Shown in pieces: positions 39,821 to 56,038 of a stretch of 64,000 nucleotides of DNA. Position 1 is the first letter of the stretch, and every line of letters begins with the position of its first letter. The notes under the pieces are model-generated. The model was not told where the DNA came from. It made no database searches and saw only the letters and a list, made by a program, of their open reading frames with translations. The DNA comes from Cellulosimicrobium protaetiae (GTDB lineage: Bacteria; Actinomycetota; Actinomycetes; Actinomycetales; Cellulomonadaceae): positions 3,844,001 through 3,908,000 of the forward strand of contig NZ_CP052757.1 of assembly GCF_009708005.2 (NCBI RefSeq), given 5' to 3'. A program made the position numbers and the translations under genes.

Positions 39821-43345
<3,525 letters not shown>

Positions 43346-43779
43346 GAGGGGTCCTTCCCTGCAGATCGAAAGAACGCTGCACCGCCGGGCTGGACACGAT
43401 CACCGCCGCCACGACACCTCGCGGACGCGCACGTACGTCGACGAGGGGGTCGGGGGTATATGAGATCGGGGGCACAGGACAGCGCAAAGCGTGAGCATAC
43501 CCCAAAGAGGCATCGCCATACAACCCCGGGGCGCGCTCCCCCGCCCGGCACGGACGCGGGGCGTCCCACCGGCACTCGCGCGGGCCTCGTCGCCCGCCAT
43601 CGACCCGTCGGACGGGTCGCGAACCTTGCTGGTGCCGACCTCGCTGTCCTGCGTCGTCGACCCGCACATGGTGGCACACTCGTGGCCGTTCCGTGAAGCC
43701 GGTGCGACCGCCCGGCTGCCCGACGACGTCCCGCACCCACCCTCCCGGCCCGCCCTCGCCGTCGGACGGCGGGAAGACG
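43346..43779 (-). promoter_or_regulatory. rpoB leader and promoter region
   Basis: No gene is supported between the rplL terminator and rpoB. On the minus strand TTGCGC is followed after 18-19 nt by the AT-rich TCATATA around 43456-43463, a possible rpoB promoter about 115 nt upstream of the start. A hairpin (43601-43608 with 43612-43619, 8 bp) lies farther up. A separate rpoB promoter downstream of rplJL is known in several actinobacteria. Confidence 0.45.
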
Positions 43780-43815
43780 ACGAGGCCCGCACCCCGGGTG
43801 GGGTGCGGGCCTCGT
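43780..43815 (-). terminator. Hairpin after rplL
   Basis: A perfect 16-bp stem (43780-43795 with 43800-43815) with a GGGT loop lies 41 bp past the rplL stop. It ends or attenuates the rplJL message before rpoB. Confidence 0.85.
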
Positions 43816-43856
43816 GCGGCGTGCTGGCCGGCCCCGTCAGGACGGGACCGGCGAGA

Positions 43857-44246
43857 TCACTTGAGGGTGACCGTGGCGCCGGCGCCCTCGAGGGCAGCCT
43901 TGGCCTTCTCGGCCGTCTCCTTGTTCGCGCCCTCCAGGACCGGCTTCGGGGCACCGTCCACGAGGTCCTTGGCCTCCTTCAGGCCGAGGGACGTGAGCGC
44001 GCGCACCTCCTTGATGACCTGGATCTTCTTGTCGCCGGCAGCCTCGAGGATGACGTCGAACTCGTCCTTCTCCTCCTCGGCCGGGGCGTCGCCCGAGCCA
44101 CCCGCGGGGGCGGCGACCGCGACGGCGGCGGGGGCGGCGGCGGTGACCTCGAAGGTCTCCTCGAAGGCCTTCACGAACTCGTTGAGCTCGATGAGGGTGA
44201 GCTCCTTGAACTGCTCGATGAGCTCGTCGGTGCTGAGCTTCGCCAT
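43857..44246 (-). CDS. rplL: 50S ribosomal protein L7/L12
   Basis: Stalk protein that recruits translation GTPases, present as dimers on L10. 129 residues: N-terminal dimerisation helices ([20 protein letters not shown]), an Ala/Pro/Gly-rich hinge (about 40-55), and a C-terminal domain with [23 protein letters not shown] 44246. Confidence 0.97.
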
Positions 44247-44360
44247 GATGGCGTTCCTTTCGGTCGGTGCTCGGCAGCGGCCCGGTGCGGGCCTGCCAGA
44301 AGCGGGGTGTGTGCTTGCGCTGCGTGGATCACGAGACCGGGGCGAGCCCCGGGCGCGGGA

Positions 44361-44891
44361 TCAGGCGGCAGCGCCCTCCGATTCCTGCTTCTGACGCAGG
44401 GCATCGATGACGCGGGCGGCCTGGGCGGTGTTCGCGGTGAAGACGTAGGCAGCCTGGAAGAGCTTGGCCTTCATCGCGCCGGCCGCCTTGGCCAGCAGGA
44501 CCTCGCGGGACTCGAGGTCCGCGAGCTTCGTGACCTCCGCGGCGGTCAGGGGGCGCCCGTCGAGGACACCGCCCTTGATGACCAGTGCGGGGTTCGCCTT
44601 GGCGAAGTCACGCAGACCCTTGGCAGCCTCGACCGGGTCCCCGGTGACGAAGGCGATTGCCGACGGGCCCTGCAGGTCGGCGTCGAGTCCCTCGACACCG
44701 GCCTCCTTGGCCGCGATGGCGGTCAGCGTGTTCTTCACCACGGCGTAGGTTGCGTTGCCGCTGAGCGACCGACGCAGCTGCTTGAGCTGCGCGACGGTGA
44801 GCCCGCGGTACTCGGTCAGCACGGCAGCGTTCGAGTCGCGGAACTTGTCCGAGATCTCGGCGACTGCGGCTGCCTTGTCCGGCCTCGCCAT
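44361..44891 (-). CDS. rplJ: 50S ribosomal protein L10
   Basis: 176 residues: [20 protein letters not shown] and the C-terminal L12-binding helix typical of the family, ending in an Ala/Glu tail. In many bacteria L10 (with L12) binds its own leader mRNA to repress rplJL. ATG 44891 has GGAAGG upstream. It is preceded by a leader of about 215 nt rather than by rplA, which is displaced 8.8 kb upstream. Confidence 0.96.
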
Positions 44892-45107
44892 GGCAATCCT
44901 TCCGGTGGTGGTACCACCGGCGTCCGTCCCGGAACGAGAAAGAGCCCCGCGCAGGCGCGGGGCTCGCAATCGCACGCACGGCGGGGCCGGGCGGACGTCG
45001 TCGATTCGCTACCTGCGCTGGCCTCCACCTCGTGGTGGGACTTCGATCCGTCACGTCCTGCAGACGGAGTCTGCGGGCAGCGTCGGACGACCGGCGGTCT
45101 TGGGTAC
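44892..45107 (-). ncRNA. Candidate L10 leader RNA
   Basis: From the predicted start site near 45107 to the rplJ start there are about 215 nt with no gene and a strong internal hairpin. Length and position fit an L10-binding leader, which represses rplJL when L10 is in excess. The conserved L10-binding fold was not modelled, so this is assigned by position. Confidence 0.5.
44942..44965 (-). terminator. Hairpin with U-rich tail in the rplJ leader
   Basis: A 10-11-bp perfect GC stem closed by a very small loop, followed on the minus strand by TTTCTCGTT. It lies 51 nt upstream of the rplJ start. It is one of the few hairpins here with a U-rich tail, so it may be a true intrinsic terminator acting as an attenuator, or the end of transcripts coming from the CHAT gene. 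Confidence 0.7.
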
Positions 45108-45113
45108 ACGCCC

Positions 45114-45142
45114 ATCGTACGGGACGTCGGCACGTGCTCCAA
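45114..45142 (-). promoter_or_regulatory. rplJL promoter
   Basis: TTGGAG (45137-45142) and TACGAT (45114-45119) on the minus strand with an ideal 17-nt spacer. It lies between the CHAT gene and rplJ, giving rplJL its own transcription independent of rplA. Confidence 0.72.
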
Positions 45143-45178
45143 ACCGCGGTCGTCCGCGACGGCATCTCCGCCGCACGG

Positions 45179-47752
45179 TCAGAGCACCAGGGGGCCGAAG
45201 CAGACGAGCGGGACGGGCTCGGGCTCGTCGGCGACGGCGCGGGCGAGCGCCGTCCCCGGCATCGCGCCGTCGCGCAGCTCGGCGTGGAGCGACGGCATGA
45301 CGCGCGCGGCGACGTCGTCGCGCAACGGGGCCACGCTCGCGACCACGGCGCGCGCGCCGAGCCGCAGCAGGACGCTCGTCAGGCCGAGCGACTCGCCGCC
45401 GATGCGCGGCGTCGAGAGCCCCACCTCGCACGCGGACAGGACGACGACGACGCCGTGCAGGTCGATGCCGTCGAGCTCGTGCGCGAACAGCGGCCCGTCG
45501 GCGAGCCGGAGCGAGGAGAAGAGCGGGTTGTCGGTCTCGTGCGTCCCGTGCGCCGCGAGGTGGACGACCCCCGCCGTCCGGAGCCCGTCGACCACGGCCT
45601 CGCACGTGGCGTCCTCGCCCGCGAGCGCGTCCGACCCCTCCCAGACGGACGCGACGAGCTTGGCCTCCGCGCTCGAGAACCGCAGCCCGGGGCCGGCGAC
45701 GACGAGCGCCTCGTCGGCGCGCCGTGTCGGTTCGCCGATCCGCAGGTCCACCCACGAGTTGGCCCACGTCCGCAGACCCCGACGTGACGGCAGCGACGCC
45801 CACGGGAGCGCGAGCAGCAGGTCGCGCGCCGCGACGTGCAGGTCGCCGTCCGCCTCGAGGGGTGCGACCAGCGCCTCGTCGAGAGCGGTCAGGGTGCGCG
45901 TGAGCGACGCGACGGCCGCCTCGCGCATCGGGACGGGGATGAGCACGTTCGACAGCACCGCGAAGTCGGCGCGGGCACGGCGTACCTGCTCGGCGACCGT
46001 CGTGCGCCGCGCGAGCCGCACGAGCCGCGTCCCCTCGGCGGAGACACGGACCGCGCGCACGTCGTCGCCGTCGAGCACGAGGTCGGCGACGACGGCGTCG
46101 GAGCCCGCCGCGGAGAGCCCCGCACGGAGGCGGCGCTCCGTCGCGGCGACCGGGGTCGCCGCCCCTCCGCCGTGCTGCCACGCGCGACGTCGGGCGTCGT
46201 CCTGCAGCCGACGCGCTGCCCGCAGGTGGTCCTGTCGTCGAGCGAGGTACGCCGGGTCCGAGGGGGCACCGAGAGCACGTGCCGCCTCGACCTCGCGACG
46301 CGCCGAGGCGAGGAGGTCCGCGAGGACCGGGTCCGACGGCGGTCGCACGCGGCCGGTGCCCGCGAACGCCGCACGACCGCGCTCGACCGCGTCGAAGATG
46401 GTCCCCGGTCGCCGCGTCCGGAGCGCCGCGTCCACGTCGACGTTGCCGAGCCGGACCCCGTGCACCGCCGACGCGGTCACGGCGTCCACGGAGCCGAGCC
46501 GTGCACGGTGCTCGGCGAGGGCGGACTGGCCGCGGCGCACGGCCCGGACGCCACCCCGGCGGTCCCCGGCCGCGAACGCGAGCTGGGCGAGCACGGCCTC
46601 GTGCTGCAGGCGCACGGGGAGCGGCGCCCGGTCGAGCCGTGCGGGGACGAGCGCGAGGACGTCTCGTGCGGCGGGCACGTCGCCCGCGGACACGAGCCAC
46701 TCGGCCGCTAGGAGCTGCGCCGGGATCGTCACGCCGAGTCCGGCGACGCCGCCGAGAGTTTCGCCCTCGCGCGCGAGGTCGAGAGCCCACGTGGCGTGGC
46801 GCCGTGCCGTCGTCGGCGTCACGGCGTCCGCGCGGTGCTCCGTGAGCGCCGCCTGCAGCTCGGCGACCCGGGCACGCAGCATCCACGGGGCGTTCCCGAG
46901 CCGGTCGAACCGGCGCGACGCCGACCGGGCCAGACGGCGGGCGTCGGCGTACCGCCGCAGACCGAGGACGACCCGCGACCGCACGAGCTCGACCTCGGCA
47001 AGGTCGCGCAGCATGCGGTACCGGGAGAGCTGCGCGCGCGCCTCCCCCAGCGCGTCGTCGGCCTCGGTCAGCAGACCGGCGTCGAGCAGCACCTGGGCGC
47101 GGTCGATGAGCCCGACGGCGGCGTGCCGGTCCGGCGCCTGCTCGGCGGCCTCGTCCATCGCACGGAGTGCGACGGGGAGATCACCACGGAGGTACTCCGC
47201 GTACCCCAGGTTGTGACGTGCCTTGGAGACGAGGAGGTCGTCCCCGAGGGCACTCCCCCGGCGCACGGCGTCGTCCAGGTCGCGGCTCGCTCCCTCCGCG
47301 TCGCCGAGCTCGAGGCGCAGCGACCCGAGGTTCAGCATGAGCACCGCGGCGTCGAGAGGGCGCGCGTCGTCGACGACGTCGACCGCCGTCTCCATCTCGA
47401 CGAGCGCCGCCGTGACGTCGCCGGACCGCAGCCGCAGGAGCCCGCGCTGCGAACGCACGACGAAGGCGAGCTCGCGCATCGCCAGCACAGCACCGCGTTC
47501 CTCGACCTCGGCGAGACGCTCGTACGCGCCGTCGACGTCGCCTGTGAGCTCGAACTCGGAGAGCGCAAGACCGAGGAGAGCGCGCGCAGCGACGTACGCG
47601 TCGCCCCTCCCCGCACCCTCGCCCGCGGCGTCGACCTCACGGACGATCTCCTCGAACGCGCGGCTCGCGCGGTGGTGCTGCCCACGTGCGTTGATCGCCT
47701 GCGCGGCAGCCAGACGGGAATCGAGCGTGGCCTGGCCGCTGCGCACCACCAC
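45179..47752 (-). CDS. TPR-CHAT caspase-like protease
   Basis: 857 residues without signal peptide or membrane helix. About residues 10-430 are helical repeats of TPR type (ALLGLALSEFELTGDVDGAY, NLGYAEYLRGDLPVALRAMD and similar), followed by a linker and a C-terminal CHAT domain (about 590-857). The catalytic dyad is intact: His735 in HLAAHGTHETDNPLF and Cys775 in VVLSACEVG. CHAT proteases are caspase relatives; TPR-CHAT proteins are known as effectors that cut a partner after activation (type III-E CRISPR Craspase, gasdermin-linked systems). Start is one of three consecutive GTGs at 47752 with GAGGTG upstream, 8 bp after the subtilase stop, so the two proteases are co-expressed. Target and trigger are unknown. 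Confidence 0.88.
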   Translation of the reverse strand: MVVRSGQATLDSRLAAAQAINARGQHHRASRAFEEIVREVDAAGEGAGRGDAYVAARALLGLALSEFELTGDVDGAYERLAEVEERGAVLAMRELAFVVRSQRGLLRLRSGDVTAALVEMETAVDVVDDARPLDAAVLMLNLGSLRLELGDAEGASRDLDDAVRRGSALGDDLLVSKARHNLGYAEYLRGDLPVALRAMDEAAEQAPDRHAAVGLIDRAQVLLDAGLLTEADDALGEARAQLSRYRMLRDLAEVELVRSRVVLGLRRYADARRLARSASRRFDRLGNAPWMLRARVAELQAALTEHRADAVTPTTARRHATWALDLAREGETLGGVAGLGVTIPAQLLAAEWLVSAGDVPAARDVLALVPARLDRAPLPVRLQHEAVLAQLAFAAGDRRGGVRAVRRGQSALAEHRARLGSVDAVTASAVHGVRLGNVDVDAALRTRRPGTIFDAVERGRAAFAGTGRVRPPSDPVLADLLASARREVEAARALGAPSDPAYLARRQDHLRAARRLQDDARRRAWQHGGGAATPVAATERRLRAGLSAAGSDAVVADLVLDGDDVRAVRVSAEGTRLVRLARRTTVAEQVRRARADFAVLSNVLIPVPMREAAVASLTRTLTALDEALVAPLEADGDLHVAARDLLLALPWASLPSRRGLRTWANSWVDLRIGEPTRRADEALVVAGPGLRFSSAEAKLVASVWEGSDALAGEDATCEAVVDGLRTAGVVHLAAHGTHETDNPLFSSLRLADGPLFAHELDGIDLHGVVVVLSACEVGLSTPRIGGESLGLTSVLLRLGARAVVASVAPLRDDVAARVMPSLHAELRDGAMPGTALARAVADEPEPVPLVCFGPLVL

Positions 47753-47760
47753 TCATCACC

Positions 47761-49554
47761 TCATGCGTCGTCACCCGGGGTCGGGACCAGACCCGTCGCC
47801 AGGGTAATGGACGGCCAGAGCCATGCGCAGCGTTCCGGCGCTCCCTTGCCCGGCTCCAGTGCACCCGGTTCGGTGGGGTCGTCGCCGATGCGCTCGAGGA
47901 GCGAGGCCGCGAGCTCACCCGCGAGGACCGGTGCGGCGAAGGACGTCCCGCTCCACGTCGCGAACCCACCCTGGAAGCCTTCGGGGTCGATCGTGGCTCG
48001 GAAGCCCGGCCCCCACAGCTCCTGCACGTGCCGCGACGGGGCGACGGCGCCGTCGATCGTCGGCGGGACCGTCGACACGAGCGACGCACCTGGCCGGGTG
48101 CAGGTGATCCACGGGCCGTCGTTGCTGAAGAGCGCGACCGTCTTGTCGGGGTTCTCGGCGCCCACGGTCAGCACGGGGGGCTCGTCCAGCCGGAGCGTCA
48201 CTCCCTCGAGGGGCACAGGAGGACTCACCTTCCGGTCGATCCGCGGCGCGAAGGCGGCCGGGTACGTCGGTCGCGTCTGGCCGTCGTTCCCGGACGAGAC
48301 GACGACGACGACCCCGTAGCGGCGCAGGGCTCGAACGAGCGCACCGAACGGGGCGTCGAAGTCGGCGTCCTCCGGGCGCTCGTGGTAGTAGCCGAGCGAC
48401 AGCACCAGGACGTCGATCGGTGCGTATCCCTCACGCCCGGACAAGCCGAGGACGTGCCAGAGCAGGACACGGCGCAGGGTCCGCAGGAGGTCGCGCTCCG
48501 GGACGACGCCAGACCCTCCGTAGAGCCGGGGCGCCAGGATCACGGCGTCCGGGCAGAGCTGGTGCACGAGCCCCGCGATGAAGGTCCCGTGGCCCGCCAC
48601 CGGGTCGAGCGGTCCCGTGAGGGGCGAGACCGACACGCCACCGATCTCCGGGTCCTCGTAGGGGTACTCCGTCGGAGGAAGCGTCGAGAGCGGCTGCCCG
48701 AGCAGCTCCGGGTCCCGCACCACGACGGCCCCGCGTGTCTCCAGGTCGTCGTCGAACCACGGATGCTCGCCGACGCCCGTGTCGAGGACCGCGACGACGG
48801 GCCGACGGACGCCGTCACCCGAGACGTAGGGGGTCTTGCCCGCGGTCAGCGTCCGGCGCGGCACCGGGCCGATCCAGCTCACCGGGGTCCGCCCGCCCGA
48901 CCCGGGCAGCGCGTACTCGGCCGTCCCCGCGGCGAAGGGATGGGGCTGGGTGTAGGGATGCGGCTGCGTGTACGGGTGGGGCTGGGTGTAGGGATGCGGC
49001 TGCGTGTACGGGTGCGGCTGCGTGTACGGGAACGGCTGCGTGTAGGGCTGACCGCCGATGAACGGCGTGGGCGCGATCATGTGGTCGAGGGCGAGCCGCG
49101 GGCTGCACCCGTCGTCGGGGCACAGCCGCCCGCGCAGCTCCTCGATCAGCCCCCAGGCGTCGGGGAGCGCACCCTGCCTGTCGTCGCGGTAGTGCAGGCG
49201 CACGGAGTAGCCGAACGTCTTGAGCAGGTCGCGCGTCGTCTCGGGGTCGAGGTCGGCCTCACGCACGAGCTCGGCGTCCTCGAGGCTCTCGTCCTGCACC
49301 TCGACCCGCAGTCCGCGGTCGGCCGCCGCGCGCTCGAGCCAGCGGAGCGAGCGGTTGCCCTCGCGGTCGAACGGCGACTCGGGGATGAGGATGCGGTCGC
49401 CGACGTACCACGTCGGGTGCGGGGACTGCTTCCCCGCACGGCGCTGCGCGCTGACCGGGTCGATGGTGCGCGTCCGCCACTGGAGCCGGTTCGGCCGGTC
49501 GCCGTAGTAGCCCGGGCCGGTCACGTCGACGGGGGGTTCGGGGGTCTCGCTCAC
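47761..49554 (-). CDS. Intracellular subtilisin-like serine protease (S8)
   Basis: 597 residues; no signal peptide, so unlike typical secreted subtilases. Order: N-terminal domain of unknown fold (1-165) beginning MSETPEPPVDVTGPGYYGDR, six PYTQPH-type repeats (170-205), then the S8 domain with Asp258 (VAVLDTGVG), His322 (GHGTFIAGLV), oxyanion Asn423 (SSGNDG) and Ser538 (GTSFAAP). All catalytic residues are present. GTG 49554 has AAGGAGG 5 nt upstream. It lies between a sigma-factor/regulator pair and the TPR-CHAT gene. The N-terminal domain may be an inhibitory or sensor part; this is inference. Confidence 0.88.
   Translation of the reverse strand: MSETPEPPVDVTGPGYYGDRPNRLQWRTRTIDPVSAQRRAGKQSPHPTWYVGDRILIPESPFDREGNRSLRWLERAAADRGLRVEVQDESLEDAELVREADLDPETTRDLLKTFGYSVRLHYRDDRQGALPDAWGLIEELRGRLCPDDGCSPRLALDHMIAPTPFIGGQPYTQPFPYTQPHPYTQPHPYTQPHPYTQPHPYTQPHPFAAGTAEYALPGSGGRTPVSWIGPVPRRTLTAGKTPYVSGDGVRRPVVAVLDTGVGEHPWFDDDLETRGAVVVRDPELLGQPLSTLPPTEYPYEDPEIGGVSVSPLTGPLDPVAGHGTFIAGLVHQLCPDAVILAPRLYGGSGVVPERDLLRTLRRVLLWHVLGLSGREGYAPIDVLVLSLGYYHERPEDADFDAPFGALVRALRRYGVVVVVSSGNDGQTRPTYPAAFAPRIDRKVSPPVPLEGVTLRLDEPPVLTVGAENPDKTVALFSNDGPWITCTRPGASLVSTVPPTIDGAVAPSRHVQELWGPGFRATIDPEGFQGGFATWSGTSFAAPVLAGELAASLLERIGDDPTEPGALEPGKGAPERCAWLWPSITLATGLVPTPGDDA
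48940..49047 (-). repeat. Six 18-bp tandem repeats inside the subtilase gene
   Basis: Encodes one PYTQPF and five PYTQPH units (residues 170-205). Units differ at synonymous third positions only, except the first. The array links the N-terminal domain to the protease domain and could vary in copy number by slippage. Protein repeat, not CRISPR. Confidence 0.92.
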
Positions 49555-49654
49555 GTGCTCCTCCTTGAGGGATGGCGTTCAGTCGGTGCCGCGGGCGTCG
49601 ACATCGACGAGCAGCGGCTCGCGCACGGGTGCGCGGAGAGGGATGGGTGCAGGA

Positions 49655-49698
49655 CGTCGTCGCGCCGCGGGCGAGGGGTCGCCCGCGGCGCGACGACG
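49655..49698 (-). terminator. Strong hairpin between regulator and subtilase genes
   Basis: A perfect 18-bp stem (49655-49672 with 49681-49698) with an 8-nt loop starts 1 bp past the stop of the regulator gene. No promoter is evident in the 100 bp between it and the subtilase start, so it may act as an attenuator that keeps protease expression below that of the sigma factor. Confidence 0.8.
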
Positions 49699-49699
49699 A

Positions 49700-50197
49700 C
49701 TACAGCTCGATGACGGGGGTGCTCACGGCGCCGGCGGCGCCGTCCGCACGGCGGACGACGAGGCTCGCCGGGCCGCGGTCGACCGCGTCGAAGGCGAAGC
49801 GTCCGTCGTCGTCGCTCGTCGTCTCGCTCACGCTGCCGGGGCGGTGCAGCTCGACGCGCAGCGCGGTGGCCGGGGCGGCCCAGCCGTCGATGCGGATGCG
49901 CCCGTCGTCGGTCGCCGACAGCGAGATCATGACCGTGACGGACTCGGACGTGAACGTGATGGTGCGCGCCTCGACGGGAGGCGCGTCGCCCCGCACGGAC
50001 ATCTCGGGGACCTGGACGTACTCCAGCTCCATGACCTCGGCCTCGAGGCCGGCGAGGGTGATCGCGAACAGCGACCGCTCGACGAGGCCGTCGGGGACGG
50101 GGTCGATCTCCTCCGCGATGCGCGCCAGCTCGGCGAGCAGCGCGAGGTCGACGGCGTCGAGCGGCTCGTCGGGGCTGTGCGTCGGCTCGGTGCTCAT
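49700..50197 (-). CDS. Sigma-factor-linked protein with carboxypeptidase-regulatory-like domain
   Basis: 165 residues. N-terminal half: a helical region (VDLALLAELARIAEEIDPVP, then DGLVERSLFAITLAGLEAEV); C-terminal half: a beta-sandwich pattern (ALRVELHRPGSVSETTSDDD, GRFAFDAVDRGPASLVVRR) like carboxypeptidase-regulatory/CnaB-type domains. There is no signal peptide. The ATG overlaps the sigma-factor stop (ATGA), so the two are made together. Such placement suggests control of the sigma factor, as an anti-sigma or co-regulator, or as a protease substrate; this is inference. It lacks the His-Cys zinc motif of classical anti-sigma factors. Confidence 0.72.
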   Translation of the reverse strand: MSTEPTHSPDEPLDAVDLALLAELARIAEEIDPVPDGLVERSLFAITLAGLEAEVMELEYVQVPEMSVRGDAPPVEARTITFTSESVTVMISLSATDDGRIRIDGWAAPATALRVELHRPGSVSETTSDDDGRFAFDAVDRGPASLVVRRADGAAGAVSTPVIEL

Positions 50198-50829
50198 GAT
50201 GCTTCCCACGATTCCCCCTGGTCGTCGATGATGTCGCGCAGCTTGGCGAGGCAGCGCCCGCGCGTGGAGCCGATGCTCCCCACCGGCATGCCGATGGCGG
50301 CCGAGATGGCCTTGTAGTCGGGTCGGTCGGCGAGCGACACGAGCCGAAGCAGCCGCCGGCAGCGGTCCGGCAGCTGGTCCAGCGCGGCCCACAGCGTGCG
50401 GTCGCGCTCGTTGCGGAGGACCTCGACGTCGGGCGTCGGGTCTCCGGACGGGAGCTCCGGCACGCCCTCGTCGGTGTCGTCGGGGAGCTCGGTCCGACGC
50501 CGCGCCTCGTCCCGGTGCTTGCGCACGGCCTCCCACGCGGCGCGCTTGGCCGTGATGAGCAGCCACTTCAGGACGGCGTGCGGCTCCTTGATCGTCATCG
50601 CGTTGCGCACGAGCGCGACCCACACCGTCTGGACGATGTCGTCGGCCTGCTCGCGCTCGACACCCTGGGCTCGCACCGTGTGCCAGAGCAGCGGCGTCGC
50701 CTCGCGGACGAAGTCGCCCAGGGCGTGGGGGCGACCGTCACGGTACTCGAGGAGCGCGAGCGCGCCCCGGTCCCCCAGGCTCAGGCCCGGTTCGTCGGTG
50801 TCCGCCAGCTCGTCGGTGGTTCTGGTCAT
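50194..50829 (-). CDS. Sigma-70-family (ECF-like) RNA polymerase sigma factor
   Basis: 211 residues with sigma region 2 (FVREATPLLWHTVRAQGVER, then QADDIVQTVWVALV) and region 4 (LDQLPDRCRRLLRLVSL, IGMPVGSIGSTRGRCLAKLR) and no regions 1 or 3, the ECF layout. ATG 50829 is chosen, but ATG 50868 fits the predicted promoter start site equally well. It heads the minus-strand module with the regulatory protein, subtilase and TPR-CHAT. No conventional anti-sigma gene is adjacent. It may drive this module or the divergent membrane genes (inference). Confidence 0.88.
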   Translation of the reverse strand: MTRTTDELADTDEPGLSLGDRGALALLEYRDGRPHALGDFVREATPLLWHTVRAQGVEREQADDIVQTVWVALVRNAMTIKEPHAVLKWLLITAKRAAWEAVRKHRDEARRRTELPDDTDEGVPELPSGDPTPDVEVLRNERDRTLWAALDQLPDRCRRLLRLVSLADRPDYKAISAAIGMPVGSIGSTRGRCLAKLRDIIDDQGESWEAS

Positions 50830-50894
50830 GGGGGGCACTGTCCTCGGCACGCTCGTCCGGTCAGGCATCAGCGGGGGGTCCCCGGAAATGCCTG

Positions 50895-50924
50895 ATTCTA
50901 GGGCCGGGCCGGTGGGGTCGACAA
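50895..50924 (-). promoter_or_regulatory. Promoter of the sigma-factor gene
   Basis: TTGTCG (50919-50924) and TAGAAT (50895-50900) on the minus strand with an 18-nt spacer. This looks like a housekeeping-sigma promoter, suggesting that the module is transcribed constitutively at some level. Confidence 0.68.
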
Positions 50925-51163
50925 CCATAATCACTGGTCACGCCCCTCTCGGCTCGCGCGGCTGGGTCCCATCTCGCTCCTTCGGCACACGGGCGGGAGC
51001 GTCGGGCCGACACTCCTCCACCGGGACGAGAGGGACGGATCGCCCGTCTGATACATCCCGCTCCGGGCGAGCTCCGCGCCGGAGGGACCCAGCCGGACGG
51101 CGCACCGCTCCGAACCAGGGGCGACGCGCGGAGAGCCCGCGCGACCACAGAGCGGAGAACCCC
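50925..51163 (+). promoter_or_regulatory. Divergent intergenic region upstream of DUF4383 gene
   Basis: Non-coding. It should contain the plus-strand promoter of the DUF4383 pair. TGATACAT near 51048 is the most -10-like stretch, without a clear -35. No strong inverted repeat was seen. Confidence 0.35.
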
Positions 51164-51571
51164 ATGACCTCGTCCCCGAACCGTCTGCTCGCGGCCGTCT
51201 TCGGCGCCGTCTACCTGCTGGTCGGCCTCGCCGGCTTCGTCGTCACGTCGGGCGTCGGCTTCGCCGCCACCGAGGGCCGCAACCTCCTGCTGTTCGAGGT
51301 GAACCCGCTGCACAACATCGTCCACCTCGGCATCGGGGCGGCGCTGCTGCTCGCGTCACGCAGCGTCCGGGCCGCGCGGGGCACGAACCTCACGATCGGC
51401 GCCGTGTACCTCCTCGTCGGAGTCGTGGGGCTGTTCCTCGTCGACACCGGCGCCAACATCATCGCGCTGAACGGCGCCGACAACGTACTGCACCTCGCCA
51501 GCGCGCTGCTGCTCCTCGGCGTGGGGCTCGCCGCGGACCGCGAGGACGCGGGCCGCACCGTCACGGCATGA
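51164..51571 (+). CDS. DUF4383 membrane protein
   Basis: 135 residues with four predicted membrane helices. FGAVYLLVGLAGFVV and FEVNPLHNIVHLGIGAALLL, then a second half repeating the pattern (IGAVYLLVGVVGLFLVD, NVLHLASALLLL), match DUF4383, a common actinobacterial family of unknown function. ATG 51164 has GCGGAG upstream. It overlaps the next gene by 4 bp (ATGA) and diverges from the sigma-factor gene. Confidence 0.85.
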   Translation: MTSSPNRLLAAVFGAVYLLVGLAGFVVTSGVGFAATEGRNLLLFEVNPLHNIVHLGIGAALLLASRSVRAARGTNLTIGAVYLLVGVVGLFLVDTGANIIALNGADNVLHLASALLLLGVGLAADREDAGRTVTA

Positions 51572-52122
51572 CGAGCCCCGTCCCCACCCGGCGCGTCGGC
51601 GCCGCGCTCGCGCTGCTCGGTGCCGGGATCGTCGACCTCGGGCTCGTCCGGGGCGGGTCCCCGGCACCGTCCGGCCTGCTCGCGCTGGCCACCGGGACGA
51701 CGGAGCTGGTCGCCGCGCTCGTGCTCCTCGCACGCCGACCGCGACCCGGTCGCCCGGCGGCGGTCCCGCGCCTCGGCATCGCCCTGCTCCTCGGCGCGAC
51801 CGTCGCCGGGGTAGCCGCCCCGGTCGCGTCCGGCGTGCCGCTCTCGGCGGGCGCGGCCGCCGCGGCCGTCCTGCGGGTCGCGACCGCATGCGTCCTCGCA
51901 CGTCCGGCGCGCGTCCCCGCCGACGGCGCCCCGGCGCGCGCCGGGGCGCGGCTCGTCGCGCTGTTCTCGGTCGCGGTCGTGGTCTCGGCGGTCGCGACGT
52001 TCGGCCTGGGCGGGACCGAGGCCGCGCAGCACGCCGTGCCGCACGGGGCCCACCTGCCCGCCCTGGGGAACCTGCCCGGCCACGGCGCGGGGCACCACGG
52101 CGAGTCCGGCGACGGTCCCTGA
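51568..52122 (+). CDS. Membrane protein of unknown function
   Basis: 184 residues; about four or five hydrophobic helices (VGAALALLGAGIVDLGL; ALATGTTELVAALVLL; LGIALLLGATVAGVAAPV; LVALFSVAVVVSAVATF) and a His/Gly-rich C-terminus (HAVPHGAHLPALGNLPGHGA, GHH) that could bind metal. No family recognised. Translationally coupled to the DUF4383 gene. Confidence 0.72.
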   Translation: MTSPVPTRRVGAALALLGAGIVDLGLVRGGSPAPSGLLALATGTTELVAALVLLARRPRPGRPAAVPRLGIALLLGATVAGVAAPVASGVPLSAGAAAAAVLRVATACVLARPARVPADGAPARAGARLVALFSVAVVVSAVATFGLGGTEAAQHAVPHGAHLPALGNLPGHGAGHHGESGDGP

Positions 52123-52133
52123 CACCTGCGCCG

Positions 52134-52153
52134 GGTACGAGTTCTCCCGTACC
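52134..52153. promoter_or_regulatory. Inverted repeat upstream of the chitinase gene
   Basis: GGTACG (52134-52139) and CGTACC (52148-52153) separated by 8 nt, 140 bp upstream of the chitinase start. Size and spacing would suit a dimeric repressor such as a chitin-responsive regulator; no match to a known operator was established. Confidence 0.35.
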
Positions 52154-52248
52154 GCGAGGCTCGAAGTTCCGGGGAATCCCTCATGTCGCGCGGCAGGCAC
52201 CAGGCCTAGCGTCGTGACGACCCCTGCACCCACCGCGGGTGCGGACCG

Positions 52249-52272
52249 GCGGGCCGCGACGTCGCGGCCCGC
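52249..52272 (+). repeat. Perfect 24-bp palindrome in the chitinase 5' leader
   Basis: The 12 bases 52249-52260 are the exact reverse complement of 52261-52272. The palindrome ends 8 nt before the GAGGAG ribosome binding site, so a hairpin here could affect mRNA stability or translation start, or it could be a protein-binding site. Confidence 0.65.
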
Positions 52273-52293
52273 CCGAGCACGAGGAGCACTTCC

Positions 52294-53589
52294 GTGAGAA
52301 CAGTCCTCTCCGGCCGCACGCGCGGCCGCACGGGGCGCGCGCTGCGCGCCCTCGCCACCGTCGTCGCCGCCGCGACCGTCGCCGCGGGCGGCGCCCTCGC
52401 CGCCGCGCCCGCGACCGCGGCGCCCGCGCCGGCCGTCGTCGCACCCGCGGCCGCGGCGGCGGGCAGCACGCAGTGGCTCACCGGCTACTGGCACAACTTC
52501 GACAACGGCTCGGTGACGATGCGCCTGTCGGAGATCCCGCAGGCGTACAACCTCGTCGCGATCGCCTTCGCCGACAACCTGGCCGGCACGCCGGGCGGCA
52601 TCACGTTCAACCTCTCGAGCGCCGAGCTCGGCGGCTACACGGAGGCTCAGTTCAAGGCCGACGTCGCGACGATCCGCGCGCAGGGCCGCAAGGTCGTGCT
52701 CTCCGTCGGCGGCGAGAAGGGCAACGTCGTCGTCTCCAACGCGACGGAGGCCAAGAACTTCGCGGACACCGCGTACGGGCTCATGCAGAAGTACGGGTTC
52801 GACGGCGTCGACATCGACCTCGAGCACGGCATCAACGCGACGTACATGTCGAGCGCGCTGCACCAGCTCTCCGCGAAGGCCGGCCCGGACCTGATCCTCA
52901 CGATGGCGCCGCAGACGATCGACTACCAGGCGACGAGCATGGGCTACTACCAGCTCACCCTGGCCATCAAGGACATCCTCACGATCGTCAACACGCAGTA
53001 CTACAACTCGGGCACGATGATGGGCTGCGACCAGAAGGTGTACTCGCAGGCCACGGTGGACTTCCTCACCGCGCTGTCGTGCATCCAGCTCGAGATGGGG
53101 CTGCGCCCCGACCAGGTCGGCATCGGTGTCCCCGCCGTGCCGAAGGCCGCCGGCGGCGGCTACCAGCCGCTCGCCAACGTCGTGAAGGCCGTCGACTGCC
53201 TCGAGGTCGGCACCGGCTGCGGCGCGTTCAAGCCGGCCACGCCGTACGGCAAGATCGGCGGCGTCATGACCTGGTCGATCAACTGGGACAAGACGAACGG
53301 CTACGAGCTCGCGAACGTCATCGGTCAGCGGCTCGCGAGCGGTCCGACCACGCCGACGGACCCCACCGACCCGACGGACCCGACCGACCCGACGGACCCC
53401 ACCGACCCGACGGACCCGACGGACCCGGGCACCTGCACCGCGCCGGCATGGTCGGCGTCCGCCGTGTACACCGGCGGCAACCGTGTCTCCCACCAGGGCC
53501 GCAGCTACGAGGCCAAGTGGTGGACGACGAACGAGAACCCGACGCAGAGCGGGCAGTGGGGGGTCTGGAAGGACCTCGGCACCTGCTGA
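52294..53589 (+). CDS. Secreted GH18 chitinase with C-terminal chitin-binding module
   Basis: Endo- or exo-acting chitinase, 431 residues. Signal peptide about 1-43 (RGRTGRALRALATVVAAAT, cleavage near ATAAP). GH18 barrel about 58-350: SVGG motif (137-140) and catalytic DGVDIDLE (170-177) with acid Glu177, plus MTWSINWD near the end. Linker of eight Thr-Asp-Pro repeats (355-378). CBM5/12-type module 381-431 with the aromatic AKWWT and W at GQWGVWKDLG. Glu177 and both Asp of the motif are present, so it should be active. GTG 52294 has GAGGAG 7 nt upstream. It supports chitin use by the organism; regulation may involve the inverted repeats upstream. Confidence 0.93.
   Translation: MRTVLSGRTRGRTGRALRALATVVAAATVAAGGALAAAPATAAPAPAVVAPAAAAAGSTQWLTGYWHNFDNGSVTMRLSEIPQAYNLVAIAFADNLAGTPGGITFNLSSAELGGYTEAQFKADVATIRAQGRKVVLSVGGEKGNVVVSNATEAKNFADTAYGLMQKYGFDGVDIDLEHGINATYMSSALHQLSAKAGPDLILTMAPQTIDYQATSMGYYQLTLAIKDILTIVNTQYYNSGTMMGCDQKVYSQATVDFLTALSCIQLEMGLRPDQVGIGVPAVPKAAGGGYQPLANVVKAVDCLEVGTGCGAFKPATPYGKIGGVMTWSINWDKTNGYELANVIGQRLASGPTTPTDPTDPTDPTDPTDPTDPTDPTDPGTCTAPAWSASAVYTGGNRVSHQGRSYEAKWWTTNENPTQSGQWGVWKDLGTC
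53356..53427 (+). repeat. Eight 9-bp repeats encoding the Thr-Asp-Pro linker
   Basis: Tandem ACC/ACG-GAC-CCG/CCC codons form the flexible linker between the catalytic and binding domains of the chitinase. Linkers of this composition are frequent in actinobacterial glycoside hydrolases. Confidence 0.9.
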
Positions 53590-53604
53590 CCTGAGCCGGG
53601 GACG

Positions 53605-53643
53605 ACGACGGCGCGGCACCCTCACCAGGTGCCGCGCCGTCGT
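53605..53643. terminator. Bidirectional terminator between chitinase and rplA
   Basis: A perfect 16-bp stem (53605-53620 with 53628-53643) with a 7-nt loop lies between the convergent ends of the chitinase gene and rplA, 15 and 40 bp away. Confidence 0.85.
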
Positions 53644-53683
53644 GCGTGGTGCGGGTGGTGGACCACCCGCGGGAGGACTGCCG

Positions 53684-54400
53684 TCAGGCGGCGTCGTCCT
53701 CGAGCAGCTTCGTCGTCTTGGACTGGTCCAGCGGGATGCCGGGGCCCATCGTCGTCGTCAGCGTGGCCTTGGTGATGTACCGGCCCTTCGAGGACGACGG
53801 CTTGAGACGCAGGACCTCTTCGATCGCCGCCGCGTAGTTCTCCACGAGCGCCTTCTCGTCGAACGAGACCTTGCCGATGATGAAGTGCAGGTTCGAGTGC
53901 TTGTCGACGCGGAACTCGATCTTGCCGCCCTTGATGTCGGACACGGCCTTCGCCACGTCCATCGTCACGGTGCCGGTCTTCGGGTTCGGCATGAGACCAC
54001 GGGGACCGAGCACCTTGCCCAGGCGGCCGACCTTGCCCATGAGGTCCGGCGTCGCCACGGCGGCGTCGAAGTCGGTGTAGCCACCGGCGACCTTCTCGAT
54101 GAGGTCGTCGCCGCCGACCTCGTCGGCACCGGCCGCACGGGCCTCCTCGGCCTTCGCCGCGTTCGCGAAGACGATGACGCGGGCCGTCTTGCCCGTGCCG
54201 TGGGGGAGGTTGACCGTGCCGCGGACCATCTGGTCCGCCTTGCGCGGGTCGACACCCAGGCGGAACACGACCTCGACGGTCGCGTCGTACTTCACGGTCG
54301 ACGTCTCCTTGGCGAGACGGATCGCCTCGAGCGGCGCGTAGAGACGCTCGCGGTCGATCTTCTCCTCGGCGTTGCGGTACGCCTTGCTGCGCGTTGCCAT
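53684..54400 (-). CDS. rplA: 50S ribosomal protein L1
   Basis: L1-stalk protein of 238 residues: [49 protein letters not shown]. In E. coli it represses its own operon with L11. Normally rplJ follows; here the next minus-strand genes are about 3 kb away (the sigma-CHAT module). Confidence 0.97.
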
Positions 54401-54485
54401 CTGCTTCTCCTTCTGCAGTCGTGGTCAGCGGGTCCGCGCGGACCCTGCCACCGTCGTCCGCAAGGTGCGGATCGACGTCGTGCCC

Positions 54486-54514
54486 GAGGCCGGCACGCGG
54501 TGCGTGCCGGCCTC
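54486..54514 (-). terminator. Hairpin in the rplK-rplA gap
   Basis: A 12-bp perfect stem (54486-54497 with 54503-54514) with a 5-nt loop in the 170-bp gap. It may reduce rplA transcription or host leader regulation. Confidence 0.6.
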
Positions 54515-54570
54515 AGTCCGTCCTCGAGCAGCCGTGAGGGCGCACCGGGGACGAGGTCATTGGGGGCTGT

Positions 54571-55002
54571 TCAGCCCTCGACCGTGATACCCATCGAGCG
54601 GGCCGTGCCCGCGATGATCTTCGACGCGGCGTCGAGGTCGTTCGCGTTGAGGTCCTCGAGCTTGGTCTGGGCGATCTCGCGCACCTGGTCGGCGGTGATC
54701 TTCGCGACCTTGACGGTGTGCGGCGTGGCCGAGCCCTTCTGCACGCCCGCGGCCTTCTTGATGAGCTCCGCGGCCGGCGGGGTCTTCGTCACGAACGTGA
54801 ACGAACGGTCCTCGTAGACCGTGATCTCCACGGGGATGACGTTGCCGCGCTGCGACTCGGTCGCGGCGTTGTAGGCCTTGCAGAACTCCATGATGTTCAC
54901 GCCGTGCTGACCGAGCGCGGGGCCGATCGGCGGGGCGGGCGTCGCCGCACCGGCCTGGATCTGGAGCTTGATGAGGCCGGAGACCTTCTTCTTGGGAGGC
55001 AT
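54571..55002 (-). CDS. rplK: 50S ribosomal protein L11
   Basis: 143 residues; [20 protein letters not shown] and [16 protein letters not shown] in the N-terminal domain, RNA-binding C-terminal domain with [13 protein letters not shown]. The thiopeptide-binding prolines are the usual ones. It is needed for stringent-response activation of RelA in other bacteria. ATG 55002. Confidence 0.97.
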
Positions 55003-55099
55003 GACTCTTCCCTGTCTTTCTTCTCGTGGACCGACGCCGTGGGCGATGACCCGGTTGCAGTACTGCGCTCACGCAGGAGCGGCGCGTGCCGCCCTCGCG

Positions 55100-55921
55100 T
55101 CAGATCTTGGCGACCTGGTTGAACGACAGCTCGACCGGGGTCTCCCGGCCGAAGATGGAGACGAGGACCTTGAGCTTCTGGTTCTCGACGTTGATCTCGG
55201 AGATCGTGGCGGGCAGCGTGTCGAACGGGCCGTCCGTGACGGTGACCGACTCGCCGACCGTGAAGTCGACCTCGACGGGAGCCTTCGCGGTGGCCTGGGC
55301 GGGCTTGCCGGGCTCCGGGGCGGGTGCCAGCATCGGCGCGAGCATCGAGAAGACCTCGTCGAGCGTCAGCGGCACGGGCTGGTGGGTGTGGCCGACGAAG
55401 CCGGTGACACCGGGCGTGTGGCGCACGGCGCCCCACGACTCGTCGGTGAGGTCCATGCGGACGAGGACGTAGCCGGGGATGCGCACGCGTCGGACGATCT
55501 TCTTCTGCGCGTTCTTGATCTCGGCCACCTCCTCCATGGGGACCTCGATCTGGAAGATGTAGTCCTCCATGTTCAGGCTCTGGATGCGGTTCTCCAGGTT
55601 GGCCTTCACACGGTTCTCGTAGCCCGCGTAGGAGTGGATGACGTACCAGTCGCCGAGCTGCGTGCGCAGCGTGCGCTTGAACTCCGCGACCGGGTCCTCG
55701 ATGACGTCGCCGTCCTCGTCGACCGGGCGCTCGTCCTCGTCCTCGGACTCGTCAGCGGCGAGCTCGTCGTCCGACGCGTCCTCGTCGTCCGAGGCGTCCT
55801 CGACCGTCTCGTCAGCCTCGTCGACCGCCGGGACGTCCGTGGTCTCCTCGACGTCGTCCTGGGCACCCTCGGGCTGCGTCGGGTCGACGTTCTCCGTCTG
55901 GTCCAGCGACTCCTGGGACAC
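55100..55921 (-). CDS. nusG: Transcription antitermination/pausing factor NusG
   Basis: 273 residues. The first 80 or so are an acidic, disordered-looking extension (many Asp/Glu with Ser/Thr). The NGN domain begins at [20 protein letters not shown]; the KOW domain contains [19 protein letters not shown]. NusG binds the polymerase clamp and links to Rho or S10. The acidic N-terminus is typical of actinobacteria and of unknown role. GTG 55921. It follows secE. Confidence 0.95.
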
Positions 55922-56038
55922 GAACGAACCTGCTTTCTGACGAACTGCTCGATGACTTCTTCTGGAAGCGCCGACGGCGCCCCGAGGGGCGCCGGCTGCC
56001 GTGGTGGGGCCCGGCGTGACCGGGCGGAGGTGCGCTCG

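Follow-up and report, generated by a model that had tools for sequence, protein, structure and literature searches.

An ECF sigma factor module with a zymogen-like subtilase and a TPR-CHAT protease in Cellulosimicrobium protaetiae: a possible protease-gated switch

The sigma factor and protease locus

The window, the whole 64,000-nucleotide stretch of contig NZ_CP052757.1 that was analysed, comes from the soil actinobacterium Cellulosimicrobium protaetiae. In it, four neighbouring minus-strand genes encode an ECF-type sigma factor, a 165-residue protein (here called CPR), an S8 subtilase and a TPR-CHAT protease. The coordinates of all four genes were re-read from the sequence and agreed with the first-pass annotation, as did the 4-bp overlap of the sigma and CPR genes and the 8-bp gap between the subtilase and CHAT genes.

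50895..50924, minus strand: likely sigma-gene promoter, TTGTCG-18-TAGAAT (sequence read by eye)
50194..50829, minus strand: ECF-type sigma factor, 211 aa (TIGR02937, Sigma70_r2)
49700..50197, minus strand: CPR, putative sigma partner, 165 aa (AF2 model)
49991..49993, minus strand: codon of CPR Arg69 (aligned relatives)
49655..49698, minus strand: 20-bp inverted repeat in the CPR-subtilase gap (repeat analysis)
47201..49699, minus strand: exchangeable cassette, reaching from near the CPR stop across the subtilase to about CHAT codon 180 (DNA identity against L073/L074)
47761..49554, minus strand: S8 subtilase, apparently of zymogen type, 597 aa (Peptidase_S8; model match to pro-subtilisins)
49075..49422, minus strand: prodomain-like N-domain of the subtilase, aa 45-160
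48877..49059, minus strand: disordered hexapeptide-repeat linker of the subtilase, aa 166-226 (repeats, pLDDT <50)
47776..48867, minus strand: subtilase catalytic domain, D258/H322/S538 (Peptidase_S8, alignment, model)
45179..47752, minus strand: TPR-CHAT protease, 857 aa (PF12770)
47201..47752, minus strand: hypervariable N-terminal TPR part of CHAT, aa 1-184 (identity by subtilase type)
45233..45895, minus strand: CHAT caspase-like domain, H735 and C775 (Pfam, alignments, profile match to solved chains)

The earlier description of the module as compact holds for the overlap and the 8-bp gap; CPR and the subtilase, in contrast, are set apart by a 145-bp gap, which holds an inverted repeat with perfect 20-bp arms and a 4-nt loop. 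A similar stem was seen by eye in several Cellulosimicrobium, and the repeat is a possible attenuator. Pfam confirmed rplA and rplJ on either side of the module; the interval between them also contains genes for a GH18 chitinase and a DUF4383 protein, plus one further frame. This position, which had been described as an insertion, is not peculiar to this genome: rplJ lay beside the module in 37 of 40 family loci, rplA and rplJ were both within the slice in 34 of the 40, and both were present in 69 of the 80 loci picked on CPR (best 80 of 260). Since the two genes are kept around the module in relatives, the position is old and does not represent a fresh insertion.

The sigma factor matched TIGR02937 at 71.8 bits (cut-off 42.9) and Sigma70_r2 at 30.9 bits, over the cut-off of 24. 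By eye, TTGTCG-18-TAGAAT is of primary-sigma type, and it is likely to be a housekeeping-type promoter of the sigma gene. It was kept, again by eye, in most of 18 aligned upstream stretches (19 were attempted and L083 was dropped), with L089 lacking it, and no ECF-type autoregulation site was seen by eye upstream of the sigma gene.

CPR matched CarboxypepD_reg at 25.7 bits, below the cut-off of 32.3. Its AF2 model (mean pLDDT 82.7) consists of a helical hairpin (aa 15-61), a disordered linker (aa 61-74, pLDDT <50) and a beta-sandwich (aa 79-165); a fold search returned weak matches, mostly of the Ig/FN3 type and none at E <= 0.001. The published reading as a carboxypeptidase is not supported by this modelled hairpin and beta-sandwich architecture, nor by Pfam or NCBIfam, which gave no peptidase match. 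No known anti-sigma family was matched in Pfam and NCBIfam up to an E value of 1. Within the variable linker Arg69 is nearly invariant, being Arg in all 40 aligned rows and in 80/80, 37/41 and 18/22 rows of three wider sets, and from the alignments it is proposed as a cleavage or contact point. The residue was also retained in sigma-CPR pairs with no CHAT or subtilase detected beside them; in eight of the nine genomes carrying such a pair, a CHAT was found elsewhere in the genome.

The subtilase matched Peptidase_S8 at 57.6 bits (cut-off 21.8), and the TPR-CHAT protein matched PF12770 at 92.2 bits (cut-off 24) and TPR models under their cut-offs. The claim that both proteases keep their catalytic residues extended to relatives, with D258, H322 and S538 present in all 37 aligned rows and H735 and C775 in all 45. 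In larger sets of matches above 100 bits, window included, Asp and His were present in 114 and Ser in 113 of 116 subtilase rows, and His and Cys in 143 of 147 CHAT rows; every exception was a gap, in a frame split or cut by a contig end.

No signal peptide was seen by eye in the subtilase. Its model matched pro-subtilisins, with a prodomain-like N-domain docked on the S8 domain; at the level of sequence and model it has both the D-H-S triad and the docked prodomain of an S8 zymogen, and it looks like a zymogen whose prodomain is tied to the protease by tandem repeats. These are PYTQPH-type hexapeptides, with DNA repeats at 48936-49047. Periodic repeats were found in 81 of the 95 subtilase linkers of at least 30 aa, their units varying freely and rarely containing Arg or Lys, and 18 of 116 subtilase rows, including those of Promicromonospora, had a repeat-less linker of 14 residues.

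The CHAT protein has a CHAT domain with its catalytic His and Cys behind TPRs, and so belongs to the TPR-CHAT class in the wide sense. The NCBIfam Csx29 model matched weakly at residues 730-820 (23 bits against a cut-off of 300). Against solved structures, the CHAT profile matched chains named 'CHAT domain protein' at E values of 2e-4 to 2e-3, which we take to be Csx29 entries. CHAT was found in all 17 genomes of the genus, including that of C. protaetiae.

Conservation of the gene set and block exchange

Co-occurrence was assessed mainly in 80 named loci chosen on CPR alone (best 80 of 260), in which sigma was present in 80, TPR-CHAT in 79 and the subtilase in 64. Two other families of the order contributed 40 loci, of which 38 had all four genes; phylum-wide, the slices held sigma in 18, CHAT in 12 and a subtilase match in 11 (one of only 22 bits) of 20 loci. 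The four homologues thus occur together in near relatives, as the first-pass check had asked, and less regularly farther out. The 16 loci without the subtilase all belonged to Cellulomonas, which indicates that sigma, CPR and CHAT form the core and that the subtilase is an exchangeable add-on. In four genomes without a local subtilase, three had no family match anywhere and one had weak partial matches, so CHAT must have another input there.

Sigma and CPR stayed together even in loci whose slice yielded neither a CHAT nor a subtilase match (L187, L192, L194, L195 and L200). Co-variation was measured in Cellulosimicrobium (n=14), Promicromonospora (n=10), an Isoptericola set (n=11) and all loci (n=60), sets that overlap in that the last contains the other three. 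Controlled for the CHAT protease domain, sigma and CPR identities co-varied with partial r of 0.63, 0.59, 0.81 and 0.56, and the two proteins probably form a pair. L184 carries two CHAT-subtilase sets, each with a CPR, and a single detected sigma with a third CPR, and L181 carries two genes each for CPR, CHAT and subtilase with one sigma; these counts fit CPR being a partner of CHAT as well.

When the window was compared with L073 and L074, sigma and CPR were 83-97% identical in DNA; identity fell to 45-75% over most of the cassette and returned to 83-94% between the 47100 and 46200 rows. Among 14 Cellulosimicrobium-clade sequences, identity of CHAT residues 5-184 was 62-76% within and 26-46% between subtilase types; from residue 395 the gap was 0-5 points, except for 13 points at 485-514. 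In Cellulosimicrobium, then, the subtilase and the first 180 or so CHAT residues vary in step as one block, and there is little difference in sigma, CPR or the protease domain of CHAT. Relatives seem to swap the subtilase together with the CHAT sensing end as a unit, with the switch itself little changed. A single Cellulosimicrobium clade was rejected by the subtilase alignment (AU p 4e-94; the tested group was named after the first tree had been seen).

The hypervariable part and the repeated replacement of the subtilase would be unusual in a core stress switch. Nevertheless, the reading as a conventional regulator of envelope or proteotoxic stress that plays no part in defence is to be taken seriously, although we do not regard it as the probable one: the module lies beside ribosomal protein genes, CHAT is present throughout the genus, the promoter is of housekeeping type, and padloc matches were weak and confined to single proteins (for example BovA at 20.1 bits and the subtilase at 21.9 bits).

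After control for the CHAT protease domain, the subtilase co-varied with the CHAT N-terminus in the Cellulosimicrobium, Promicromonospora, Isoptericola and all-loci sets (partial r 0.86, 0.95, 0.64 and 0.71; permutation p 0.001). The corresponding values were 0.03, 0.06, -0.14 and -0.15 for CPR and -0.06, 0.01, -0.02 and -0.10 for sigma. Coupling was strongest in Promicromonospora, where linkers lack repeats, and the repeats are therefore not needed for it. The ratio of N-terminal to protease-domain divergence in CHAT was 4.16 in the Cellulosimicrobium clade (15 sequences) and 6.64 in Promicromonospora (11 sequences), in both of which the subtilase precedes CHAT; it was 1.36 in the 16 subtilase-less Cellulomonas, 1.78 in 10 second CHAT copies of Promicromonospora and a mild 1.69 in Isoptericola-type loci, where the subtilase is present.

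Because the subtilase and the CHAT N-terminus are adjacent in the DNA, linkage alone could couple them, and the block may be no more than a footprint left by recombination tracts that lie between conserved flanks, without any functional contact. Consistent with this, the CHAT middle (residues 180-590) also co-varied with the subtilase (partial r 0.54, 0.87, 0.68 and 0.39), as strongly as the N-terminus in the Isoptericola set. In 31 loci with the separated order subtilase-sigma-CPR-CHAT, subtilase-CHAT coupling was weaker (0.50, or 0.40 with more controls); the subtilase co-varied there with CPR at 0.43 and with sigma at 0.19, and since CPR couples about as much, this control does not single out CHAT. 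Synonymous differences were raised in the subtilase: between the window and L072, which share a subtilase type, dS was 0.47 for the subtilase, 0.13 for CPR and 0.21 for sigma. Against a footprint, the far end of the block falls inside the CHAT gene, between about residues 184 and 395, rather than where one gene meets the next; second CHAT copies, and CHAT proteins of loci without a subtilase, have a calm N-terminus; and window and L072 differ by dN 0.20 and dS 0.47 in the CHAT N-terminus and by 0.032 and 0.33 in the rest of CHAT. This dN excess is itself inconstant, the ratio of N-terminus to rest being at least 1.5 in four of eight same-type pairs with a full N-terminus and 1.1-1.3 in the other four. 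Taken together, these comparisons lean slightly towards the subtilase working with the TPR end of CHAT, and a footprint without contact appears the lesser possibility.

Proposed mechanism

We tentatively read the module as a soluble protease-gated ECF sigma switch, in which the subtilase acts on CHAT, CHAT cuts CPR and sigma is freed; its binding and cleavage steps and their order are those that we infer. CPR would be the cognate regulator of sigma, holding it by the helical hairpin, and the flexible linker would join this hairpin to a beta-sandwich docked on the CHAT protease. The subtilase, made as a zymogen, would be the input. It, or a piece freed by its self-processing, would engage the variable N-terminal TPRs, and CHAT so engaged would become active and cut CPR, perhaps in the linker at Arg69, upon which sigma would be released or destabilised. 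We put cleavage of CPR by CHAT at about even, a place for the subtilase upstream of CHAT at somewhat below that, and a cut at Arg69 itself as rather doubtful.

The cascade might also run in reverse, with CHAT initiating and cutting the subtilase linker, the active subtilase degrading cell proteins as terminal effector, and the sigma-CPR pair controlling expression of the response. The modelled disordered linker of a zymogen-like subtilase would be a natural activation site, and the co-variation could reflect substrate recognition. This order is unlikely, however, given the scarcity of Arg and Lys in freely varying repeats, the retention of sigma, CPR and CHAT in the 16 subtilase-less loci among the best 80 of 260, a co-variation that, controlled for the CHAT protease domain, peaks in three of the sets at the TPR end of CHAT, and the housekeeping look of the sigma promoter. 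Direct destruction of sigma by the proteases, which would keep the system off with CPR as adaptor or chaperone, was put forward for ECF54 (PMC8999054, section 3.3), but is improbable here in view of the lack of subtilase-sigma co-variation in the family and the lack of a peptidase match or modelled peptidase fold in CPR, whose counterpart is counted as a protease in that section.

Comparison with known systems

The subtilase resembles pro-subtilisin E (3whi), Pro-S324A/L349A (3wiu) and PCSK9 in its modelled docking of a prodomain-like N-domain on the S8 domain. It differs from pro-subtilisins in having no signal peptide, as judged by eye, and in that most relatives carry short tandem repeats where prodomain and protease join. 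The anti-phage S8 peptidase IteS/IetS is also a subtilase; model matches to it were very weak (12 bits against 900, and 14.8 bits), and the listed genes of the rplA-rplJ interval include no partner ATPase.

Primary sources on the ECF54 group are reportedly Casas-Pastor 2021 and Huang 2015. By gene context the locus shows an ECF54-type neighbourhood; the model protein of that group is SFT86700.1. As far as its ECF54 passages go, PMC8999054 describes a conserved neighbourhood with carboxypeptidase-type, subtilase and CHAT proteins and proposes proteolytic control, so that both the association and the proteolysis idea are already published. In that account the carboxypeptidase-like protein is one of the proteases and sigma is their object, whereas CPR shows no peptidase fold; here, moreover, relatives can lack or exchange the subtilase, and CHAT is hypervariable at its N-terminus. 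The anatomy of CPR with Arg69, the zymogen-type subtilase with its repeat linker and the block exchange in Cellulosimicrobium are new. They make the published suggestion directly testable, through one residue and natural sensor-cassette swaps.

Type III-E CRISPR has a TPR-CHAT protease whose target is an inhibitor of a sigma factor: Csx29 cuts the two-domain protein Csx30, whose N-terminal domain binds an ECF sigma (as described in the relevant parts of PMC10028731). The present module, like Csx29/Csx30/CASP-sigma, pairs a protease of the TPR-CHAT class with a protein whose two domains are joined by a flexible linker, and has an ECF sigma gene alongside; CPR is likened to Csx30 by domain layout. 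Like Csx29, CHAT has the conserved His and Cys, and in 139 of 147 rows the Cys is followed by an acidic residue. According to the same source, the site at which Csx29 cuts Csx30 is a small loop within the C-terminal domain and not the interdomain linker, and the parallel therefore does not favour Arg69. No RAMP match (PF03787; RAMP as in Cas7-11) was found in the C. protaetiae genome by a search that, as a control, gave matches in 4 of 14 genomes, and no spaced CRISPR array was present at 43000-56000, where direct repeats were judged by eye to be the subtilase linker, low-complexity sequence and two-copy chance pairs.

A zymogen-type subtilase would here stand in place of the RNA-guided activator. 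Speculatively, and with less confidence than in any of the steps proposed above, the module may correspond to the protease arm of Craspase, but without CRISPR: the subtilase zymogen (with a repeat linker in most relatives) would be swapped along with a hypervariable TPR sensor, so that a conserved core of sigma, CPR and protease would keep being fitted with new recognition ends, in the manner of receptors for innate immunity or self/non-self discrimination. If the module works like the type III-E arm, the exchange of subtilase and TPR end points to the site of signal entry, and the same logic exists without CRISPR.

Conservation and setting of the module

All four genes placed in this minus-strand module by the first-pass annotation were found where it had put them, family profile matches agreed with the protein families assigned, and its observation as a whole holds.

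45179-47752, minus strand: TPR-CHAT protease (CHAT)
47761-49554, minus strand: subtilase
49655-49698: perfect 20-bp inverted repeat
49700-50197, minus strand: CPR, the 165-residue putative sigma partner
50194-50829, minus strand: ECF-type sigma factor
51049-51054: GTATCA hexamer upstream of the sigma gene
52294-53589: GH18 chitinase with a CBM5/12 module, within the rplA-rplJ interval
53684-54400: rplA

Between rplA and the sigma gene lay the chitinase, often present in the rplA-rplJ interval of relatives too, a DUF4383 protein and one frame without a Pfam match. The hexamer was identical in all 18 upstream stretches aligned (L083 dropped) and may belong to the promoter of the divergent DUF4383 gene. 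Inspection by eye revealed no conserved ECF-like promoter upstream of the sigma or subtilase gene, and ECF-type autoregulation of the module was rejected on this ground. The inverted repeat falls within the 145 bp separating CPR from the subtilase; a similar stem, with changed bases in both arms, was seen by eye in several Cellulosimicrobium. Among the matches listed, the closest named relatives of the window CPR and subtilase were C. cellulans and C. funkei.

In two protein searches the 120 best matches were listed, out of 163 and 1430 respectively, and 64 and 75 rows were taken into models. A CHAT match was present in 57 of 99 genomes, including 17/17 of the genus (own genome counted), and 40 of the 57 were taken as CHAT-picked neighbourhoods. 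CPR was present in 40/40, the subtilase in 36/40 and sigma in 39/40; the exception, L070, is a slice starting behind sigma, and L186 from the same genome shows the gene. The module adjoined rplJ in 37/40 loci and had both rplA and rplJ in 34/40; a contig end marks the start of one locus (L034), and two slices start behind rplA. Among the best 80 of 260 CPR-picked loci, sigma was found in 80, CHAT in 79 and the subtilase in 64; the only CHAT-less locus (L123) is where a contig ends, and all 16 loci without the subtilase were from Cellulomonas. Both ribosomal protein genes were present in 69 of these 80 loci, one in 10 and neither in 1. The neighbourhood check proposed in the first-pass annotation, co-occurrence of homologues of all four genes, bore out the association: of 40 loci from two further families within the order, 38 had the full set and 33 the gene order subtilase-sigma-CPR-CHAT.

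Phylum-wide, CPR was detected in 26 of 396 genomes, of which 20 were taken for loci, two (G000, G076) were already in the set and four (G277, G330, G180, G455) were left out. The 20 loci contained sigma in 18, CHAT in 12 and a subtilase match in 11 (one very weak). Ten neighbouring frames from the eight loci without detected CHAT or subtilase, one at a contig end (L189) and two also without detected sigma (L188, L198), gave neither a CHAT nor a subtilase match against Pfam. Distant CHAT proteins (~31-41% identity) occurred in G091, G064, G074 and other relatives. Sigma matched 5 of 72,556 plasmid records, all at <60% identity.

An exchanged block of subtilase and CHAT N-terminus

The window was compared at DNA level with two records titled C. 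cellulans, L073 and L074. Identity was 83-97% over sigma and CPR, dropped to 45-75% in a block that runs from roughly the end of the CPR gene across the subtilase as far as CHAT codon ~165, and was 89-90% in the stretch that follows; against L074 the drop begins slightly later than the CPR stop. Over 62 loci, subtilase identity was <65% in 12 of the 56 pairs with >80% identity in the core (sigma, CPR and CHAT). By the three core proteins the genus forms one clade together with L085 and L078, whose records are titled Oerskovia flava and Sphaerisporangium, respectively. The subtilases of this clade fall into three lineages (A, B and C, represented by the window, L074 and L080), of which two group with subtilases from Oerskovia or Isoptericola. 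A single subtilase clade for these members, a group named after the first tree had been seen, was rejected by the AU test. The module of L078, titled Sphaerisporangium cinnabarinum, closely resembles that of Cellulosimicrobium funkei L077 (sigma and CPR 99%, subtilase 97%), and the assembly is probably mislabelled or contaminated.

The type of the hypervariable CHAT N-terminus (CHAT-N, residues 1-184) follows the subtilase type. Identities between L073 and L079 were 67% in CHAT-N, 87% in the subtilase and 72% in the rest of CHAT, and between L073 and the window 31%, 49% and 91%, respectively. The effect of subtilase type on CHAT peaked at residues 5-184, with 62-76% identity within types and 26-46% between, and from residue 395 on amounted to 0-5 points except for 13 at 485-514. 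Subtilase lineage A holds two further CHAT N-types (L075, L076).

Partial correlations, controlled for the CHAT protease domain, were calculated for Cellulosimicrobium, Promicromonospora, the Isoptericola set and all 60 loci (split frames in L083, L104 and L126 and the cut L113 and L123 left out), and are given in that order. Values for the subtilase were 0.86, 0.95, 0.64 and 0.71 with CHAT-N, 0.54, 0.87, 0.68 and 0.39 with the middle of CHAT, and 0.03, 0.06, -0.14 and -0.15 with CPR; sigma and CPR gave 0.63, 0.59, 0.81 and 0.56. With L104, whose CHAT is split, retained, excess CHAT-N divergence was 4.16 in Cellulosimicrobium, 6.64 in the first and 1.78 in the second Promicromonospora copy, 1.69 in Isoptericola and 1.36 in subtilase-less Cellulomonas. 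Tandem CHAT pairs stood behind one subtilase in L094-L096, L098, L100-L103, L105, L107, L109 and L111, and in the Promicromonospora loci measured only the first copy had a hypervariable N-terminus.

The coupling of the subtilase to CHAT-N could be a product of linkage. In 31 of the 33 loci of order subtilase-sigma-CPR-CHAT (L209 and L234, both cut, left out), where the subtilase lies apart from CHAT, the coupling was 0.50 and the CPR-subtilase value was close to it, at 0.43, so an effect of linkage may still contribute.

Between the window and L072, which share a subtilase type, dN was 0.20 in CHAT-N vs 0.03 in the rest of CHAT, and dS 0.47 vs 0.33. Among 11 hand-picked pairs, three with <80 codons of CHAT-N were uncounted; in the eight usable pairs the CHAT-N to rest dN ratio was at least 1.5 in four and 1.1-1.3 in four. 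For sigma and CPR, only values from window pairs were retained, since in several pairs the frame of one or other gene starts too far upstream. From this pattern, the variety of CHAT-N looks mostly imported by exchange, with faster change in some pairs.

Domain anatomy and unusual loci

In the subtilase model an N-domain (~45-160) is joined to the S8 domain in an arrangement like that of pro-subtilisin E (3whi) and likewise resembling the Pro-S324A/L349A entry (3wiu) and PCSK9. The junction is a disordered linker in which a hexapeptide, PYTQPH in the window, is repeated in tandem; units in relatives, not all known to belong to such a module, were PYSTPL, PYTTPL, PFTSH, PYVAH, NPFTESHG-type and PYMGGG-type. 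Among 116 subtilase rows (window and split frames counted in), 95 had a linker of at least 30 residues, 81 of these being periodic relative to shuffles; 18 had a 14-residue linker and three were too short or cut for the periodicity test. The repeats mostly contain an aromatic or large residue. Subtilases prefer such residues, and the composition would suit self-processing by a subtilase.

The CPR model comprises helices at 15-31 and 38-61, a stretch with pLDDT <50 at 61-74 and seven strands from 79 on. Linker residue Arg69 was present in 40/40 rows of one set and 80/80 of another, and in the aligned column of 37/41 (40 loci from the two other families plus L200) and 18/22 more distant rows; in the eight distant rows off the column an Arg adjoins it, as judged by eye. 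In the 64-row alignment A1 it fell in the class of at least 90%, not invariant. The reading that Arg69 marks CHAT only was rejected, because the residue is also conserved at loci without a detected CHAT in the vicinity. Fold searches with the beta domain gave weak matches only (best E 6.4e-3).

Two loci carried arrays with one detected sigma gene each: L181 (6-18 kb) with two CPR, two CHAT and two subtilase genes, and L184 (2-15 kb) with three, two and two, as if several protease sets fed one sigma. CHAT frames appear split in L040/L073 (near the C-terminus), L104, L126 and L134, and subtilase frames in L083 and L126, through either sequencing error or decay.

Proposed order of action and comparison with known systems

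The association of sigma, CPR, subtilase and CHAT is already known, the likeness to the sigma group ECF54 being one of gene context. In its account of ECF54, a 2022 review (PMC8999054) gives carboxypeptidase, subtilase and CHAT proteins as the conserved context and states that proteolysis had been proposed for that reason. Since no peptidase match was found in CPR, the printed "carboxypeptidase" probably refers to its regulatory-like beta domain. No description of an exchangeable subtilase/TPR cassette was found in the open-licence PMC literature searched; within that scope, what is new here is the internal architecture of the module, an exchangeable subtilase with a hypervariable CHAT end.

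Because, within the family, sigma covaries with CPR and the subtilase with the TPR end of CHAT, the subtilase being coupled to neither CPR nor sigma, sequence covariation would put CHAT between the subtilase and the sigma-CPR pair. In type III-E CRISPR, according to PMC10028731, the TPR-CHAT protease Csx29 contacts the activator complex through its NTD, its TPR and the first part of CHAT, and its substrate, Csx30, through the second part of CHAT. By analogy with this layout, the subtilase may be the input to CHAT and CPR its target. Given the absence of the subtilase from the Cellulomonas loci, CHAT must have another input there. A RAMP protein was not found in the window's own genome. PMC10028731 places the Csx30 cleavage site in a loop of the C-terminal domain, outside the Csx30 linker, unlike the hypothetical cut in the CPR linker.
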